NCBI GenBank assembly: GCA_029689965.1
Contig: CP121450.1
Location: 1 to 64,000, forward strand
From: Curtobacterium flaccumfaciens
GTDB lineage: Bacteria > Actinomycetota > Actinomycetes > Actinomycetales > Microbacteriaceae
Length of the DNA stretch: 64,000 bases
Direction of reading: 5' to 3'
Under the pieces are notes generated by a model. The model saw nothing but the letters and a program-made list of their open reading frames with translations, had not been told where the DNA came from and did no database searches. Made by a program: the position numbers and the translations under genes. Shown here piece by piece: positions 7,322 to 53,189 of the stretch (positions are counted from its first letter, which is position 1; each line of letters begins with the position of its first letter).

Positions 7322-9568
<2,247 letters not shown>

Positions 9569-12973: not shown

Positions 12974-13992
12974 TGCTCGTGTCCCTTCCCGGTCGTGCCG
13001 GCTTCGTGCTTCCCCGCGGACGTGCTCGGCACTGCGACGCGTCGACCGATCTCCGCATGGGTCATCTGGTTCTCGGTGCGGCGGCTCGGGTCCGGGATCA
13101 CCTCGGTGCCCGCACCCCGGAGGGTGAAGACCTCGAGGAGGATCGAGTGCGGGATCCGGCCGTCGATGATCGTCGCGCCGCCGACTCCGCCGACCACGGC
13201 GTCGAGGCACGCGGTCATCTTCGGGATCATCCCCGACTCGAGCGACGGCAGCAGCTCGCGGAGCTCCTCGACGGCGATGAGGTCGACGATCGAGTCGCGG
13301 TCCGGCCAGTTGCGGTACAGGCCCGGCACGTCCGTCAGCATCATCAGCTTCGACGCCGTGAGCGCGATCGCGAGCGCCCCGGCCGCGGCGTCGGCGTTCA
13401 CGTTCAGGGCCTGGTCGGGGTGGGCGTCGTCGATCGCGATGCTCGAGACGACCGGGATGCGACCGGCCTCGATCGCGGCGAGGACGCCGGACGGGTCGAC
13501 GTGCGTGATGTCGCCGACGTGGCCGAGGTCGAAGTGCTCGCCGTCGACGACGACGCCCTTCTTCTCGCCCGTGAAGAGCGACCCGCCGTCGCCGAACACG
13601 CCGACCGCCAGGCCGTCGCCGTGCTCGTTCATCAGGTCCACGATCTCGCGGTTGACCTCGCCCGCCAGGACGTCGCGGACGACCGAGATCGCCTCGGTCG
13701 TCGTCACGCGGTACCCGCCCCGGAACTCGGACTCGATGCCCTGCTCCTTGAGCGCGGCGGAGATCTGCGGGCCGCCGCCGTGCACGACGACGGGGTGCAG
13801 GCCCGCGTAGCGCAGGTAGACCATGTCCTCGGCGAATGCACGCTTCAGGTCGTCGTTCACCATCGCGTTGCCGCCGAACTTGACGACGACGATCTTCCCG
13901 GAGAACCGCTTCAACCACGGCAGGGACTCGATGAGCGTCGCTGCCTTGACCGCCGCGAGCTCGTGCTCCTCTTGCTTCGTCAGGTCGCTCAT
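12970..13992 (-). CDS. argB: Acetylglutamate kinase
   Basis: Phosphorylates N-acetylglutamate, the usual feedback-controlled step. Amino-acid-kinase fold with VVVKFGGNAM at residues 36-45 and VVHGGGPQIS in the first third; the NVNADAAAGALA segment is typical. Intact, 340 aa; this is about 40 aa longer than most ArgB because of a polar tail after the RTENQ segment that shows no domain. The ATG at 13992 overlaps the argJ stop by one base. Confidence 0.94.
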   Translation of the reverse strand: MSDLTKQEEHELAAVKAATLIESLPWLKRFSGKIVVVKFGGNAMVNDDLKRAFAEDMVYLRYAGLHPVVVHGGGPQISAALKEQGIESEFRGGYRVTTTEAISVVRDVLAGEVNREIVDLMNEHGDGLAVGVFGDGGSLFTGEKKGVVVDGEHFDLGHVGDITHVDPSGVLAAIEAGRIPVVSSIAIDDAHPDQALNVNADAAAGALAIALTASKLMMLTDVPGLYRNWPDRDSIVDLIAVEELRELLPSLESGMIPKMTACLDAVVGGVGGATIIDGRIPHSILLEVFTLRGAGTEVIPDPSRRTENQMTHAEIGRRVAVPSTSAGKHEAGTTGKGHEQ

Positions 13993-15341
13993 CAGCTGGA
14001 GTACGCGCTGTTCTCGTGCACGTAGTCGTGCGTGAGGTCGTTGGTGAGGATCGTCGCCGCGTACGGTCCGACGCCGAGGTCGATGAGCACGTGCGTGTCC
14101 CGCGGGCGCAGGTCGACGGCGTCGCTCGGCTGGTCCGGGGCCCCGGCGTGGCAGACGCGGACGCCGTTCATCGAGACGTCGACCGCGTACGGGTCGAACT
14201 CGGCGTCGGTCGTGCCGATCGCCGCGAGCACGCGGCCCCAGTTCGGGTCGTTGCCGAAGACCGCAGCCTTGAACAGGTTGTTGCGTGCCACGCTGCGGCC
14301 GACCGTGACGGCATCGGCCTCGCTCGCGGCATTGACGACCTCGATGGCGATGTCGTGGCTCGCGCCCTCGGCGTCCTGCTGCAGCTGCCGGGCGAGGTCG
14401 GCGCACACGGCTGTCAGTGCCTCTTGGAAGTCGCCGACCTCCGGCGTGACACCGCTCGCTCCGGAGGAGAGCAGGACCACGGTGTCGTTCGTGGACATGC
14501 AGCCGTCGGAGTCGACGCGGTCGAAGGTCACGCGTGTGGCCGCGCGGAGCGCCTGGTCGAGCTCGTCGGAGGCGAGGACCGCGTCGGTCGTGATCACCAC
14601 GAGCATCGTCGCGAGGCCCGGCGCGAGCATGCCCGCGCCCTTCGCCATGCCGCCGACGGTCCAGCCGTCCTCGGCGACCGCCGACTGCTTGGCCTTCGTG
14701 TCGGTCGTCATGATGGCGGTCGCGGCGTCGTGTCCGCCGTCGCCGGAGAGCGCCGCGCTCGCGAGGTCGACGCCCTTGAGGACGTTGTCGCGGAACGTCT
14801 GGTCGCCCACGCCGATCAGGCCGGTCGAGCACACCACCACGTCACCCGCTCCGATGCCGAGCGCCTCGCCGACCGCCTCGGCCGTGAGGTGGGTGGTCTG
14901 GAAACCGAAGGGGCCCGTGAAGCAGTTCGCGCCTCCCGAGTTGAGCACGACCGCCCGGGCGACGCCGTCACCGACCACCTGACGTGACCAGATGACGGGG
15001 TGCGCCTGTGCGCGGTTGCTCGTGAACACGGCGGCGACCGCCGCCTGGGGGCCGTCGTTGACGACGAGGGCGACGTCCGGCTTGCCGCTCGGCTTGAGTC
15101 CGGCGGTCACGCCCGCAGCGCGGAAGCCCGCTGCCGCGGTGACGCCCTGGAGGCCCGGGGCGGCCTGGGTGGGCCGGATCGCGTCGGTGTCGACGGACGC
15201 TGCTGCGACTCCGTCCACACCTTGGCTTGCGTCCGTGCCGACGGACGCTGCTGCGACTCCGTCCACACCTTGGCTTGCGTCCGTGCCGACGGACGCTGCT
15301 GCGACTCCGTCCACGCCCTGCGGCTGGCTTGCGTCCGTCAT
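13992..15341 (-). CDS. argJ: Bifunctional ornithine acetyltransferase/N-acetylglutamate synthase with repeat tail
   Basis: Recycles the acetyl group from acetylornithine to glutamate and can also make N-acetylglutamate from acetyl-CoA. The self-cleavage motif ATML is present in PGLATMLVV, so the product should mature into two chains. Intact, 449 aa against the usual 385-405. The excess is at the N terminus: three near copies of a 16-residue unit ([16 protein letters not shown]) precede the normal start region [17 protein letters not shown]. The ATG at 15341 overlaps the argC stop (ATGA). The extension appears to come from duplication of the argC/argJ junction itself. Confidence 0.93.
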
Positions 15342-15358
15342 GGTGCGACTCCGTCCAC
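15192..15358 (-). repeat. 48-bp tandem repeat at the argC/argJ junction
   Basis: Units at 15192-15239 and 15240-15287 are identical; a third, altered unit runs 15288-15341 and includes the argJ start codon. The 15-mer TGCGACTCCGTCCAC recurs at 15204, 15252, 15300 and 15344, the last copy being the end of argC itself. Unit length 48 keeps the frame. Confidence 0.93.
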
Positions 15359-16435
15359 GCTGAGGCCGAGGGTCTCCGGGAAGCCCAGGGCGATGTTCGT
15401 CGACTGGACGGCGGCACCGGCAGTGCCCTTCGCCAGGTTGTCGAGGGCGGTGACCGCGACGACCCGGCCGGCTGCTTCGTCGACGGCGAGCCCGACCAGT
15501 GCGGTGTTCGCCCCGGTCGTGTCCGCGACCCGTGGGAACTCACCCTCGGGCAGGAGGTGCACGAAGGGCTCGTCGGCGTAGGCCTGCTCCCACGCCAGAC
15601 GGACGTCGCGGGCGCTCACCCCGGGCGCGAGCTTCGCCGTGGTGGTCGCGAGGATGCCCCGCGACATCGGGACGAGGACGGGCGTGAACGAGATCGTCAC
15701 GTCCGAGGCGCCGGCGACCGCGAGGTTCTGCTGGATCTCCGGGATGTGCCGGTGCTTCCCGCCGACTGCGTACGCGCTGGCCGAGCCCATGATCTCGGAC
15801 GCGAGGTACGTGGTCGCGAGCTTCTTGCCGGCACCGCTCGGACCGACGGCCAGCACGGCGACGAGGTCGTCGGACTCGACGAGCCCGGCCTGGATGCCGG
15901 GCTGGATGCCGAGCGTCACCGCGGTGACGTTGCAGCCGGGGACGGCGATCCGCTTCGTGCCGACGAGTGCCGAACGCTGCCGGCCCTGCGCCTGGATGTC
16001 GTCGACGTCGCGCCACTCGTCCGCCGAACCGGGCGCGGGCGCCGCGTGCAGGAGTTCCGGCAGGCCGTAGGTCCATGCGCCGTGGTACTCGCCACCGTAG
16101 AAGGCCTCCCACGCCGCCGGGTCCGTCAGGCGGTGGTCCGCGCCGCAGTCCACCACGAGGGCCTCGTCGCCGAGTTCCGCCGTGATCGCCCCGGACTGTC
16201 CGTGCGGCAGCGCGAGGAAGACCACGTCGTGTCCGCGCAGGTTCTCCGCCGTCGTCTCGACGAGGGTCAGGTGCGACAGCGAGCGGAGGTGCGGCTGCGT
16301 CGCGATGAGCGGCTGTCCGGCGTTCGAGAACGCGGTCACCGTCCTGACGTCGAACTCGGGGTGGGCGGAGAGCACGCGCAGGAGCTCACCGCCCGCGTAG
16401 CCGGAGGCTCCCGCCACGGCGACGGATACGGACAT
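15338..16435 (-). CDS. argC: N-acetyl-gamma-glutamyl-phosphate reductase
   Basis: NADPH-dependent reduction of N-acetylglutamyl phosphate. Rossmann motif [12 protein letters not shown] at the N terminus and the catalytic cysteine in [11 protein letters not shown]. Intact, 365 aa, slightly longer than the usual 345 because of an insert around [16 protein letters not shown]. First gene of the arginine cluster, 77 nt after pheT. I see no ARG-box-like AT-rich palindrome in that gap, so ArgR control is not visible here. Confidence 0.95.
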
Positions 16436-23078: not shown

Positions 23079-23230
23079 CGCGCGTAGGTCGCCGATTCGC
23101 GCGTAGGTCGCCGATTCGCGCGTAGGTGGTCGATTCGCGCGTAGGCGGTCGAATCGCGCGTAGGCGGTCGAATCGCGCGTAGGCGGTCGAATCGCGCGTA
23201 GGCGGTCGAATCGCACGTAGGCGGTCGAAT
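23079..23230. repeat. 19-bp tandem repeat, 8 units
   Basis: Eight head-to-tail copies of a 19-bp unit, consensus CGCGCGTAGGCGGTCGAAT, units 4-7 identical and units 1-3 and 8 slightly different. It fills the spacer between the convergent DUF1844 and maltokinase genes. No unique spacers separate the units, so it is not a CRISPR. Confidence 0.95.
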
Positions 23231-23274
23231 CGCGCGTACAGGGTCGGAAGTTCCGACCTTCCACGCGCGATTCG
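23226..23274. terminator. Nested inverted repeat at the end of the 19-bp array
   Basis: Outer arms CGAATCGCGCGT (23226-23237) and ACGCGCGATTCG (23263-23274) enclose an inner palindrome GGTCGGAA-G-TTCCGACC (23242-23258). The left outer arm is the last repeat unit of the tandem array. It could act as a two-way terminator for the flanking convergent genes. Between 23275 and 23475 I see only an inverted pair of the CTGGAGGC word (23330, 23358) and no gene. Confidence 0.6.
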
Positions 23275-24809: not shown

Positions 24810-24945
24810 GCTCGTTCCTCCACAGCGCTCGTTCCTCCACAGCGCTCGTTCCTCCACAGCGCTCGTTCCTCCACAGCGCTCGTTCCTCCACAGCGCTCAT
24901 TCCCCCACAGCGCTCATTCCCCCACAGCGCTCATTCCCCCACACT
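24810..24945. repeat. 17-bp tandem repeat, 8 units
   Basis: Eight copies of a 17-bp unit: five GCTCGTTCCTCCACAGC followed by three of the variant GCTCATTCCCCCACAGC (the last ending CACACT). It occupies the divergent spacer upstream of the maltokinase start, where promoters for both neighbours should lie. No spacers between units. Confidence 0.95.
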
Positions 24946-26514: not shown

Positions 26515-26970
26515 GTGCCGCACTACCTCGAGGACCTCGCCGCCGGACAGACCTTCACGACCCCGGGTCGCACGATCACGGAAGCGGACGTGGTGTCGTT
26601 CGCCTCGTGGACGAACGACAACAACCAGGTCCACACCGACGTCGAGTTCGCGGCGAAGACCCGGTACGGGCAGCGGATCGTGCACGGGCTGCTCGGCACC
26701 TCGCTGTGTCTCGGGCTCATCGCACGGACCGGGGTGTTCGAGGGGTCGGCCGTGGCACTGCTCGGCATCGACCAGTGGCGCTTCACGGCGCCGGTGTTCA
26801 TCGGGGACACGCTGACGTGCGACGTCGAGATCCTGTCCACCCGGCTGACCAGCTCGGGCCGGACCGGGATCGTGGAGCGGACCGTGTCGCTCCGCAACCA
26901 GCGCGGCGAGGTCGTGCAGCAGGGGCGTATGGACGTCATGGTCCTCACGCGCGATGCGGCGATCGGCTGA
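26515..26970 (+). CDS. MaoC-like hot-dog dehydratase
   Basis: Probable (R)-specific enoyl-CoA hydratase-like protein. Intact, 151 aa. The family motif is complete: SFASWTNDNNQVHTDVEFA with the catalytic Asp/His pattern, then GQRIVHGLLGTSLCLGL. The GTG at 26515 begins VPHYLEDLAAGQTF. Its acyl-CoA substrate cannot be told from the context: the gene follows the CHAD gene closely and precedes a glycosidase. The last 15 nt, including the stop, are the first unit of a 16-bp tandem repeat. Confidence 0.82.
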   Translation: MPHYLEDLAAGQTFTTPGRTITEADVVSFASWTNDNNQVHTDVEFAAKTRYGQRIVHGLLGTSLCLGLIARTGVFEGSAVALLGIDQWRFTAPVFIGDTLTCDVEILSTRLTSSGRTGIVERTVSLRNQRGEVVQQGRMDVMVLTRDAAIG

Positions 26971-27003
26971 CGCGGCGATCGGCTGACGCGGCGATCGACT
27001 GAC
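26956..27003 (+). repeat. 16-bp tandem repeat x3 over the maoC stop codon
   Basis: Three units of GCGGCGATCGGCTGAC (third unit with one change), followed by a partial unit. The first unit ends the MaoC coding sequence and includes its TGA. Since 16 is not a multiple of 3, each added unit supplies further stops in other frames. Confidence 0.9.
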
Positions 27004-27037
27004 GCGGCGAGGGCGGCGGGCGCGTCGACTGCTTCCG

Positions 27038-52437: not shown

Positions 52438-53189
52438 GGTCGGGCCTTCGTGCGAGGGGTGGGGGCAGGGAGATCGTACGGGGAAGTGGTGTACCAACGC
52501 GACTCACGGCGTCGCACAGAGACGCTGCCATCGTTGAGAATTGTGCGTTTCATCGACGGAAATACCCGCATGACAAACGCCCGTAATTCGATTTCGATCC
52601 GCTCACGAATGACATCCGGGCATTGTCTCGGCGCATTCTTCGGGCATGATGAACGCGCAGCACGTTGCCGACGGGGAGCGCCTGACAGCGTCGTCCGGCA
52701 CTCCCCGTCCAACTCCCTCGGCGTCCCGGCGTCCACGCGGCGTCTCGGCGTCCACGCGGCGTCTCGTCTCGTTGAAACGAGACGCCGCTGTCGCAGCGCG
52801 ACGCCGCCGGGCTCGCGAGACGCCGCCGGCTTCCGCGGCGTCTCGCCACCGGCGCGGCGTCTCGACAGGGCGAGCCGGTCTCGGCGCAGCGAGACACCGC
52901 CCTGCGGCCAACCCCACACCGGACTGGAGGCGCGACTGGGCGCCGCCACGTGCCTCCCGTCCGCCAGTCCCGTCGTAGCGAGACGCGGCCTCGGCCACGA
53001 GACGCCGTCACCCTCCCGAGACGCCGCCGAATCCTGCGGCGTCTCGCCAGCGTCGCGGCATCTCGCCAGCGTTGCGGCGTCTCGCCAGCGTTGCGGCGTC
53101 TCGCCAGCGTCGCGGCGTCTCGCCAGCGTCGCGGCGTCTCGCCAGCGTTGCGGTGTCTCAGCGCGCTCGCGACGGGCCGCAGTGCGTGA
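52438..53189. other. Repeat-rich gap without genes
   Basis: Some 750 bp with no credible gene. 52438-52640 is ordinary spacer upstream of the importer. From 52700 the DNA is packed with the words GCGGCGTCTCG and its complement in both orientations, including a hairpin GGCGTCTCGTCTCGTTGAAACGAGACGCC (near 52766-52794, 10-bp ends). An inverted CTGGAGGC/GCCTCCCGTCC pair follows (52924, 52955), then the tandem array at the end. Frames through it translate to Arg/Ala/Ser repeats. Confidence 0.8.
53036..53149. repeat. 19-bp tandem repeat, 6 units
   Basis: Six head-to-tail copies of GCGGCGTCTCGCCAGCGTT (last base T or C), followed by a degenerate seventh unit to about 53168. It ends 40 bp before the stop of the DUF985 gene. 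Same unit length as the array at 23079 but a different sequence. Confidence 0.95.

Follow-up and report, generated by a model that had tools for sequence, protein, structure and literature searches.

How does an arginine gene come to carry the closing codons of its neighbour in its leader? The question arises in the window analysed here, the whole stretch of 64,000 nt at positions 1 to 64,000 of contig CP121450.1 from Curtobacterium flaccumfaciens. There the end of argC recurs inside the start of argJ. Our main reading, to which we give a probability of about three in four, is that the argJ leader is a coding minisatellite kept in frame, with a unit seeded from the argC/argJ junction, a probable template-switch step in its making and likely little effect on the enzyme.

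The argC/argJ junction and its copies

The two genes adjoin in an arginine cluster on the minus strand and have an ATGA in common. The argC frame (15338–16435) encodes N-acetyl-gamma-glutamyl-phosphate reductase, scores above the TIGR01850 cut-off and ends in SVDGVAP and the stop. The argJ frame (13992–15341) encodes the bifunctional ornithine acetyltransferase / N-acetylglutamate synthase of 449 aa. Its product scores above the NF003802 and TIGR00120 cut-offs and matches PF01960 over residues 74–449 with 407.6 bits against a cut-off of 32.

The ATGA at 15338–15341 is argJ start and argC stop at once, the stop/start overlap of translationally coupled pairs. Seven nucleotides 5′ of the ATG and still within argC lies GGAG (15349–15352), by its position the likely Shine-Dalgarno sequence of argJ. 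Overlap and GGAG have both stayed intact, and the sequence-only reading was right that the array left the overlap in place.

That reading had also noticed that a 15-mer, GTGGACGGAGTCGCA on the coding strand and TGCGACTCCGTCCAC on the forward strand, closes argC and returns three times inside argJ. All four places are exact, the original at 15344–15358, where it contains the GGAG, and the copies at 15300–15314, 15252–15266 and 15204–15218. The first copy has 17 nt in common with argC, its source (GCGTGGACGGAGTCGCA). The reported 48-bp spacing holds within argJ (48 and 48 bp), but the step from the argC copy to the first argJ copy is 44 bp.

Shuffled windows hold on average 0.75 matches to the 15-mer with up to two mismatches, and four were reached in 1 of 100 shuffles; those in the real sequence match exactly and lie close together. 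Throughout the 3.84-Mb genome the exact 15-mer is found at these four places only, and one more place has it with one mismatch.

TRF delimits the array at 15181–15314, with 2.8 copies of a 48-bp unit at 97% matches, a tandem unit as in coding minisatellites. Since the unit is divisible by three and the argJ frame is intact, the reading frame is kept through the array. The unit peptide is 16 aa.

On the coding strand, unit 0 at the argC end and argJ start consists of the 15-mer, CCATG, ACGGACGCAAGCC and AGCCGCAGGGC. Units 1 and 2 consist of the 15-mer, GCAGCGTCCGTCGGC, ACGGACGCAAGCC and AAGGT, and unit 3 of the 15-mer, GCAGCGTCCGTCGAC and ACCGACGCGATCC, followed by GGCCCACCCAGGCCGCCCCGGGCCTCCAG and the conserved core. 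The GCAGCGTCCGTCGGC that takes the place of CCATG in copy 1 is at 15285–15299, the next one at 15237–15251 and the variant GCAGCGTCCGTCGAC at 15189–15203. Sequence like the argJ start does follow every copy, as had been seen earlier, being ACGGACGCAAGCC after two of the argJ copies and ACCGACGCGATCC after the last.

The present argJ start belongs to unit 0. Unit 3 leads into sequence like the usual 15-aa leader found in near relatives (e.g. TDASQPTHTDPGLQ), so the simplest view is that this unit was once the argJ start and has since lost the start codon. The array thus lies in a leader of 65 codons (15147–15341) ahead of the conserved core.

Distribution in the genus

We compared 66 Curtobacterium genomes including this one, with one genome per species. 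The overlap is RTGA in all 66 (GTGA in 62 and ATGA in 4), the argC-end 15-mer is exact in 48 and, by the 15-mer tally, its GGAG is kept in 63. The argC-tail search resolved 144 of 146 loci, six of which duplicate genus members, and among the 66 genus genomes a stretch of the argC end of at least 10 nt lies within the argJ leader in this one only. With a conserved junction in the genus and an argC-derived leader in a single genome, the direction from argC to argJ is well supported, and the junction proposed earlier as the source stands. The argC copies would have been gained late, in a single lineage.

Of the 74 loci from outside the genus, 72 were resolved, and argJ starts one base before the argC stop in 67 of them. 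Of the 67, 62 lack a leader beyond 1–2 residues, and the other five have one of 6–16. Because most of the other loci are leaderless, the 66 genus loci are the relevant set and the leader appears largely a feature of Curtobacterium.

ArgJ leaders are hypervariable within the genus, from 14 to 65 aa. The leader studied here is the longest at 65 aa, against 14–53 aa in the other 65 genomes and 15–16 aa in the five nearest relatives, which puts the gain at about 50 codons, in agreement with the earlier estimate. A tree of the argJ core, built from 68 rows by a quick method and with many modestly supported branches, places this genome among species with leaders of 15–16 aa. The comparison shows the argC copies in argJ to be a derived state within the genus.

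No intermediate state of the array was seen among the other genus genomes, of which the nearest argJ core is 91% identical. A 27-mer scan of the contigs of named genomes gave 0 matches, in a set that may leave this genome or a very near one outside. The argC copies are confined to this genome, but leaders of 26–53 aa without argC sequence occur elsewhere (L024, L028, L029, L034, L035 and L041). Since they exist, junction copying is not the general way in which leaders grow in Curtobacterium.

A dispersed element was considered and rejected, since nothing else in the genome matches the 48-bp unit well and the next best hit has an E of 0.002. A 23-nt core, allowing two mismatches, is found at one other place here and at one place each in 6 other genomes, away from argJ. 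Copying as a general property of gene overlaps was likewise rejected. In four stretches totalling 244 kb, a copy of the upstream end of at least 12 nt lies within 200 nt at 2 of 119 mechanically called RTGA overlaps against 380 of 40000 random positions, no clear excess, and the second of the two overlaps sits in a 17-bp array.

Proposed origin and probable translation of the repeat

The simplest history had been thought to be plain tandem duplication of the overlap. It falls short on two counts, the reading phase and a 5-nt replacement. In argJ the 15-mer is read in argC's own codon phase as VDGVA. A faithful copy in this phase would read VDGVAP and then argC's TGA stop, and a faithful copy keeping the argJ frame would read GRSRT and retain an internal ATG. 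Neither form is present. Instead, CCATG (5 nt) is exchanged for GCAGCGTCCGTCGRC (15 nt), for a net gain of 10 nt by which the stop is lost and one frame runs on into the other. Because the copies match neither faithful form, at least one further event beyond duplication is called for.

The replacing segment hints at its source. When reverse-complemented, nine of its 15 nt (GCGTCCGTC) give GACGGACGC of the argJ start, and so form an inverted copy of nearby sequence. An inverted match to the 44-nt unit 0 as good as this is reached by 0.16% of random 15-mers from the window, in a test chosen after the match had been seen. As single-stranded DNA, the 48-bp unit is predicted to form an 8-bp hairpin of −11.8 kcal/mol (z −2.36), and 4 of 200 shuffles fold as well.

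A template switch at a quasipalindrome therefore seems the likeliest source of the 15-bp replacement. This mechanism is described for E. coli (PMC7202029), and homogenisation of the arms with multi-codon change is reported for yeast genes (PMC8604942). The argJ case is alike in that an inverted nearby copy would perfect a short inverted repeat and change several codons. Those studies used reporters or strain phylogeny, whereas here the event is deduced from a single genome and an inverted match of 9 nt.

The leader could have been built in three steps. A local duplication of the junction would have left the argC stop and the first ATGA untouched. In the downstream copy CCATG would then have given way to the 15-bp segment with the inverted argJ start; a template switch at a short quasipalindrome is the probable route. 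With this change the second start and the in-phase stop would have gone and the frames been joined. Finally, the 48-bp unit would have expanded through slippage or unequal recombination. The order may also have been the reverse at the beginning, with the insertion first, via a short-lived in-frame argC-argJ fusion.

The product would be an ArgJ with a 65-residue leader, predicted to be disordered, in which the C-terminal peptide VDGVA of ArgC stands three times. Translation, coupled to that of argC, would most likely begin at the ATG of position 15341. This start has the overlap and the GGAG at 7 nt as in the rest of the genus, and the frame from it is intact to the core. In favour of translation the open frame counts for little, since the 48-bp unit lacks stops in any of the six frames. 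Translation of the repeat is plausible.

A244-T245, which we take to be the alpha/beta cleavage site of ArgJ with the threonine at the cleavage point, is invariant in a 34-row alignment, and T245 aligns with the residue that opens the beta chain of 3it4. The 65-aa leader searched alone against Pfam gave no match. In solved ArgJ structures the matches to the N-terminal part start at residue 63 or later.

AlphaFold2 with the same 34-row alignment gives pLDDT below 50 for residues 1–63, with block means of 26–35 over residues 1–60, values that are low partly because few rows align there; the conserved stretches 238–243 and 441–449 are low as well. Most likely, the effect of the leader array on the enzyme is small. 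The array is best read as a near-neutral coding minisatellite that lies in a leader predicted to be disordered and whose seed, unusually, came from across a gene boundary.

Related repeats, rival readings and significance

Repeats are found in other ArgJ leaders too. For seven of the 66 (L001, L028, L029, L034, L037, L038 and L041), none of 200 codon shuffles reached the tandem score; L004 stands at 0.04, as expected by chance among 66. L028, L029, L034 and L041 form one clade with L024 in the argJ-core tree, and L037 and L038 lie elsewhere. The repeat units of these other species are 9 or 15 bp and contain no argC stretch of at least 10 nt.

In the window itself, argH (8165–9508, minus strand) bears a separate parallel expansion outside the argC/argJ event. 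An array of 15 bp × 4.7 (9435–9504, minus strand) directly follows its start, which reads VTDANQP and then three more DANQP. By a fixed rule the argH leader is 30 aa here against 10–21 aa in the other 62 resolved genomes, with 3 of 66 unresolved. The unit equals the segment that opens argH in near relatives, and its source is thus the start of argH itself. Tandem growth in frame, immediately behind the start codon, is common to argH (15 bp), to the other Curtobacterium argJ repeats (9 or 15 bp) and to the array studied here, although the leader repeats of the other species are without argC sequence.

Over 60 kb, TRF listed 16, 8, 10 and 22 rows in four genomes, with overlapping rows unmerged. 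The idea that this genome is unusually repeat-rich is ruled out over about 460 kb, where its 101 arrays (464 kb) compare with 98 in one relative (460 kb), or 21.8 against 21.3 per 100 kb. A mechanical search for start-proximal arrays over about 460 kb each, false ORFs included, gave 9 rows (8 arrays) here and 4 rows (3 arrays) in the relative. Given these, the ArgJ leaders and argH, the argJ array is a case of repeats growing close to a start codon, in which only the seed is uncommon.

Further arrays were seen. Outside the window, at 404353–404410 of G000 (minus strand, within L238-L239), a lipoprotein-like ORF opens MTRSTRSTRSTR, with a 9-bp array 3 nt past its start. In the window, arrays with a 19-bp unit at 23079–23238, 53036–53159 and 52719–52766 (8.4, 6.5 and 2.5 copies) are unspanned by matching ORFs of three relatives. 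The arrays at 24810–24943 (17 bp, 7.9 copies) and 26956–27010 (16 bp, 3.4 copies) have periods not divisible by three and are spanned only by weak ORF matches of 42–57% identity.

Could the array be real DNA but lie outside the protein? ArgJ would then have a downstream start, such as the GTG with which the last copy begins (GTG GAC GGA), and a leader of 24 aa inside the usual range. Every copy has an in-frame GTG, which is the usual argJ start in Curtobacterium (62/66), and with six open frames the unit would look coding in any case. It is the ATG at 15341, however, that retains the genus-wide overlap with GGAG 7 nt upstream, while the internal GTGs have only AAGGT or CAGGGC ahead at a spacing of about 1 nt. 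By the usual rules, a ribosome-binding site that near is too close to the start. No altered RNA structure was seen at the argJ start either, its folding energy ranking 27th of 66, an ordinary value. We regard a downstream start as unlikely. The array or its copy number might instead be made by an error-prone assembly, given a completeness of 65.5% and broken frames nearby in argD (near 12.3 kb) and at the argH C-terminus; the gene at 16.5–19.1 kb is broken as well. A mechanical count over the first 60 kb, antisense ORFs included, found 17 frame switches in 43 matched test ORFs here against 2 in 49 and 3 in 51 in two relatives, and the many broken frames are probably sequencing indels. Such errors are frame switches, not structured in-frame repeats of 150 bp, the differences between the units are themselves structured, and leader arrays are present too in genomes scored 99–100% complete. 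An artefact is thus very unlikely in our judgement.

Copy number might also tune the amount or behaviour of ArgJ, in parallel to the argH array. In favour, the argJ leader (65 aa, of 66) and the argH leader (30 aa, of 63 resolved) are the longest of their sets. Against it, the overall array density equals that of the relative, start-proximal arrays occur at other ORFs too and the predicted RNA folding at the start site is unchanged. We give this functional reading the lowest odds of those weighed here. The same low odds go to its wider form, in which both leaders are selected length-tuning elements and gene overlaps seed them by copying the ribosome-binding tail of the upstream gene; if true, an operon junction would be a source of new protein sequence. 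A near-neutral array of junction origin remains the preferred reading.

An open-access literature search, over the parts of the texts it reached, turned up no recognisable ArgJ-leader repeat and no repeat seeded by a gene overlap. The ORF repeats of Borg elements (PMC9879509) are alike in being recent and lineage-specific, with units divisible by three and disordered segments, some of them N-terminal. They belong to archaeal extrachromosomal elements, and seeding by a neighbouring gene is not among the features described in the accessible part of that report. The argJ array, in contrast, concerns one bacterial housekeeping gene and a unit taken across a gene overlap. According to a census (PMC7230257), protein tandem repeats are often found at sequence flanks and overlap with disorder.

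Translational coupling is known for gene pairs overlapping by ATGA (PMC6728339). The putatively coupled argC/argJ pair resembles these in its RTGA and intragenic GGAG. Unlike in the usual pairs, the putative coupling signal itself has been copied into the downstream gene, there without a start codon.

Altogether, the argJ array is an otherwise ordinary kind of DNA repeat with an unusual origin, the neighbouring gene. The start of ArgJ is easily called wrongly at such an array by automatic annotation, and the array is a candidate typing locus. The leaders of two Curtobacterium arginine enzymes tolerate in-frame repeats near the start. Here, in a clear-cut case, new N-terminal protein sequence would have been made out of the end of a neighbouring gene. 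The copied segment holds the last codons of ArgC and, most likely, the ribosome-binding site of argJ, and from the phase in which it is read, duplication alone is seen to be insufficient.
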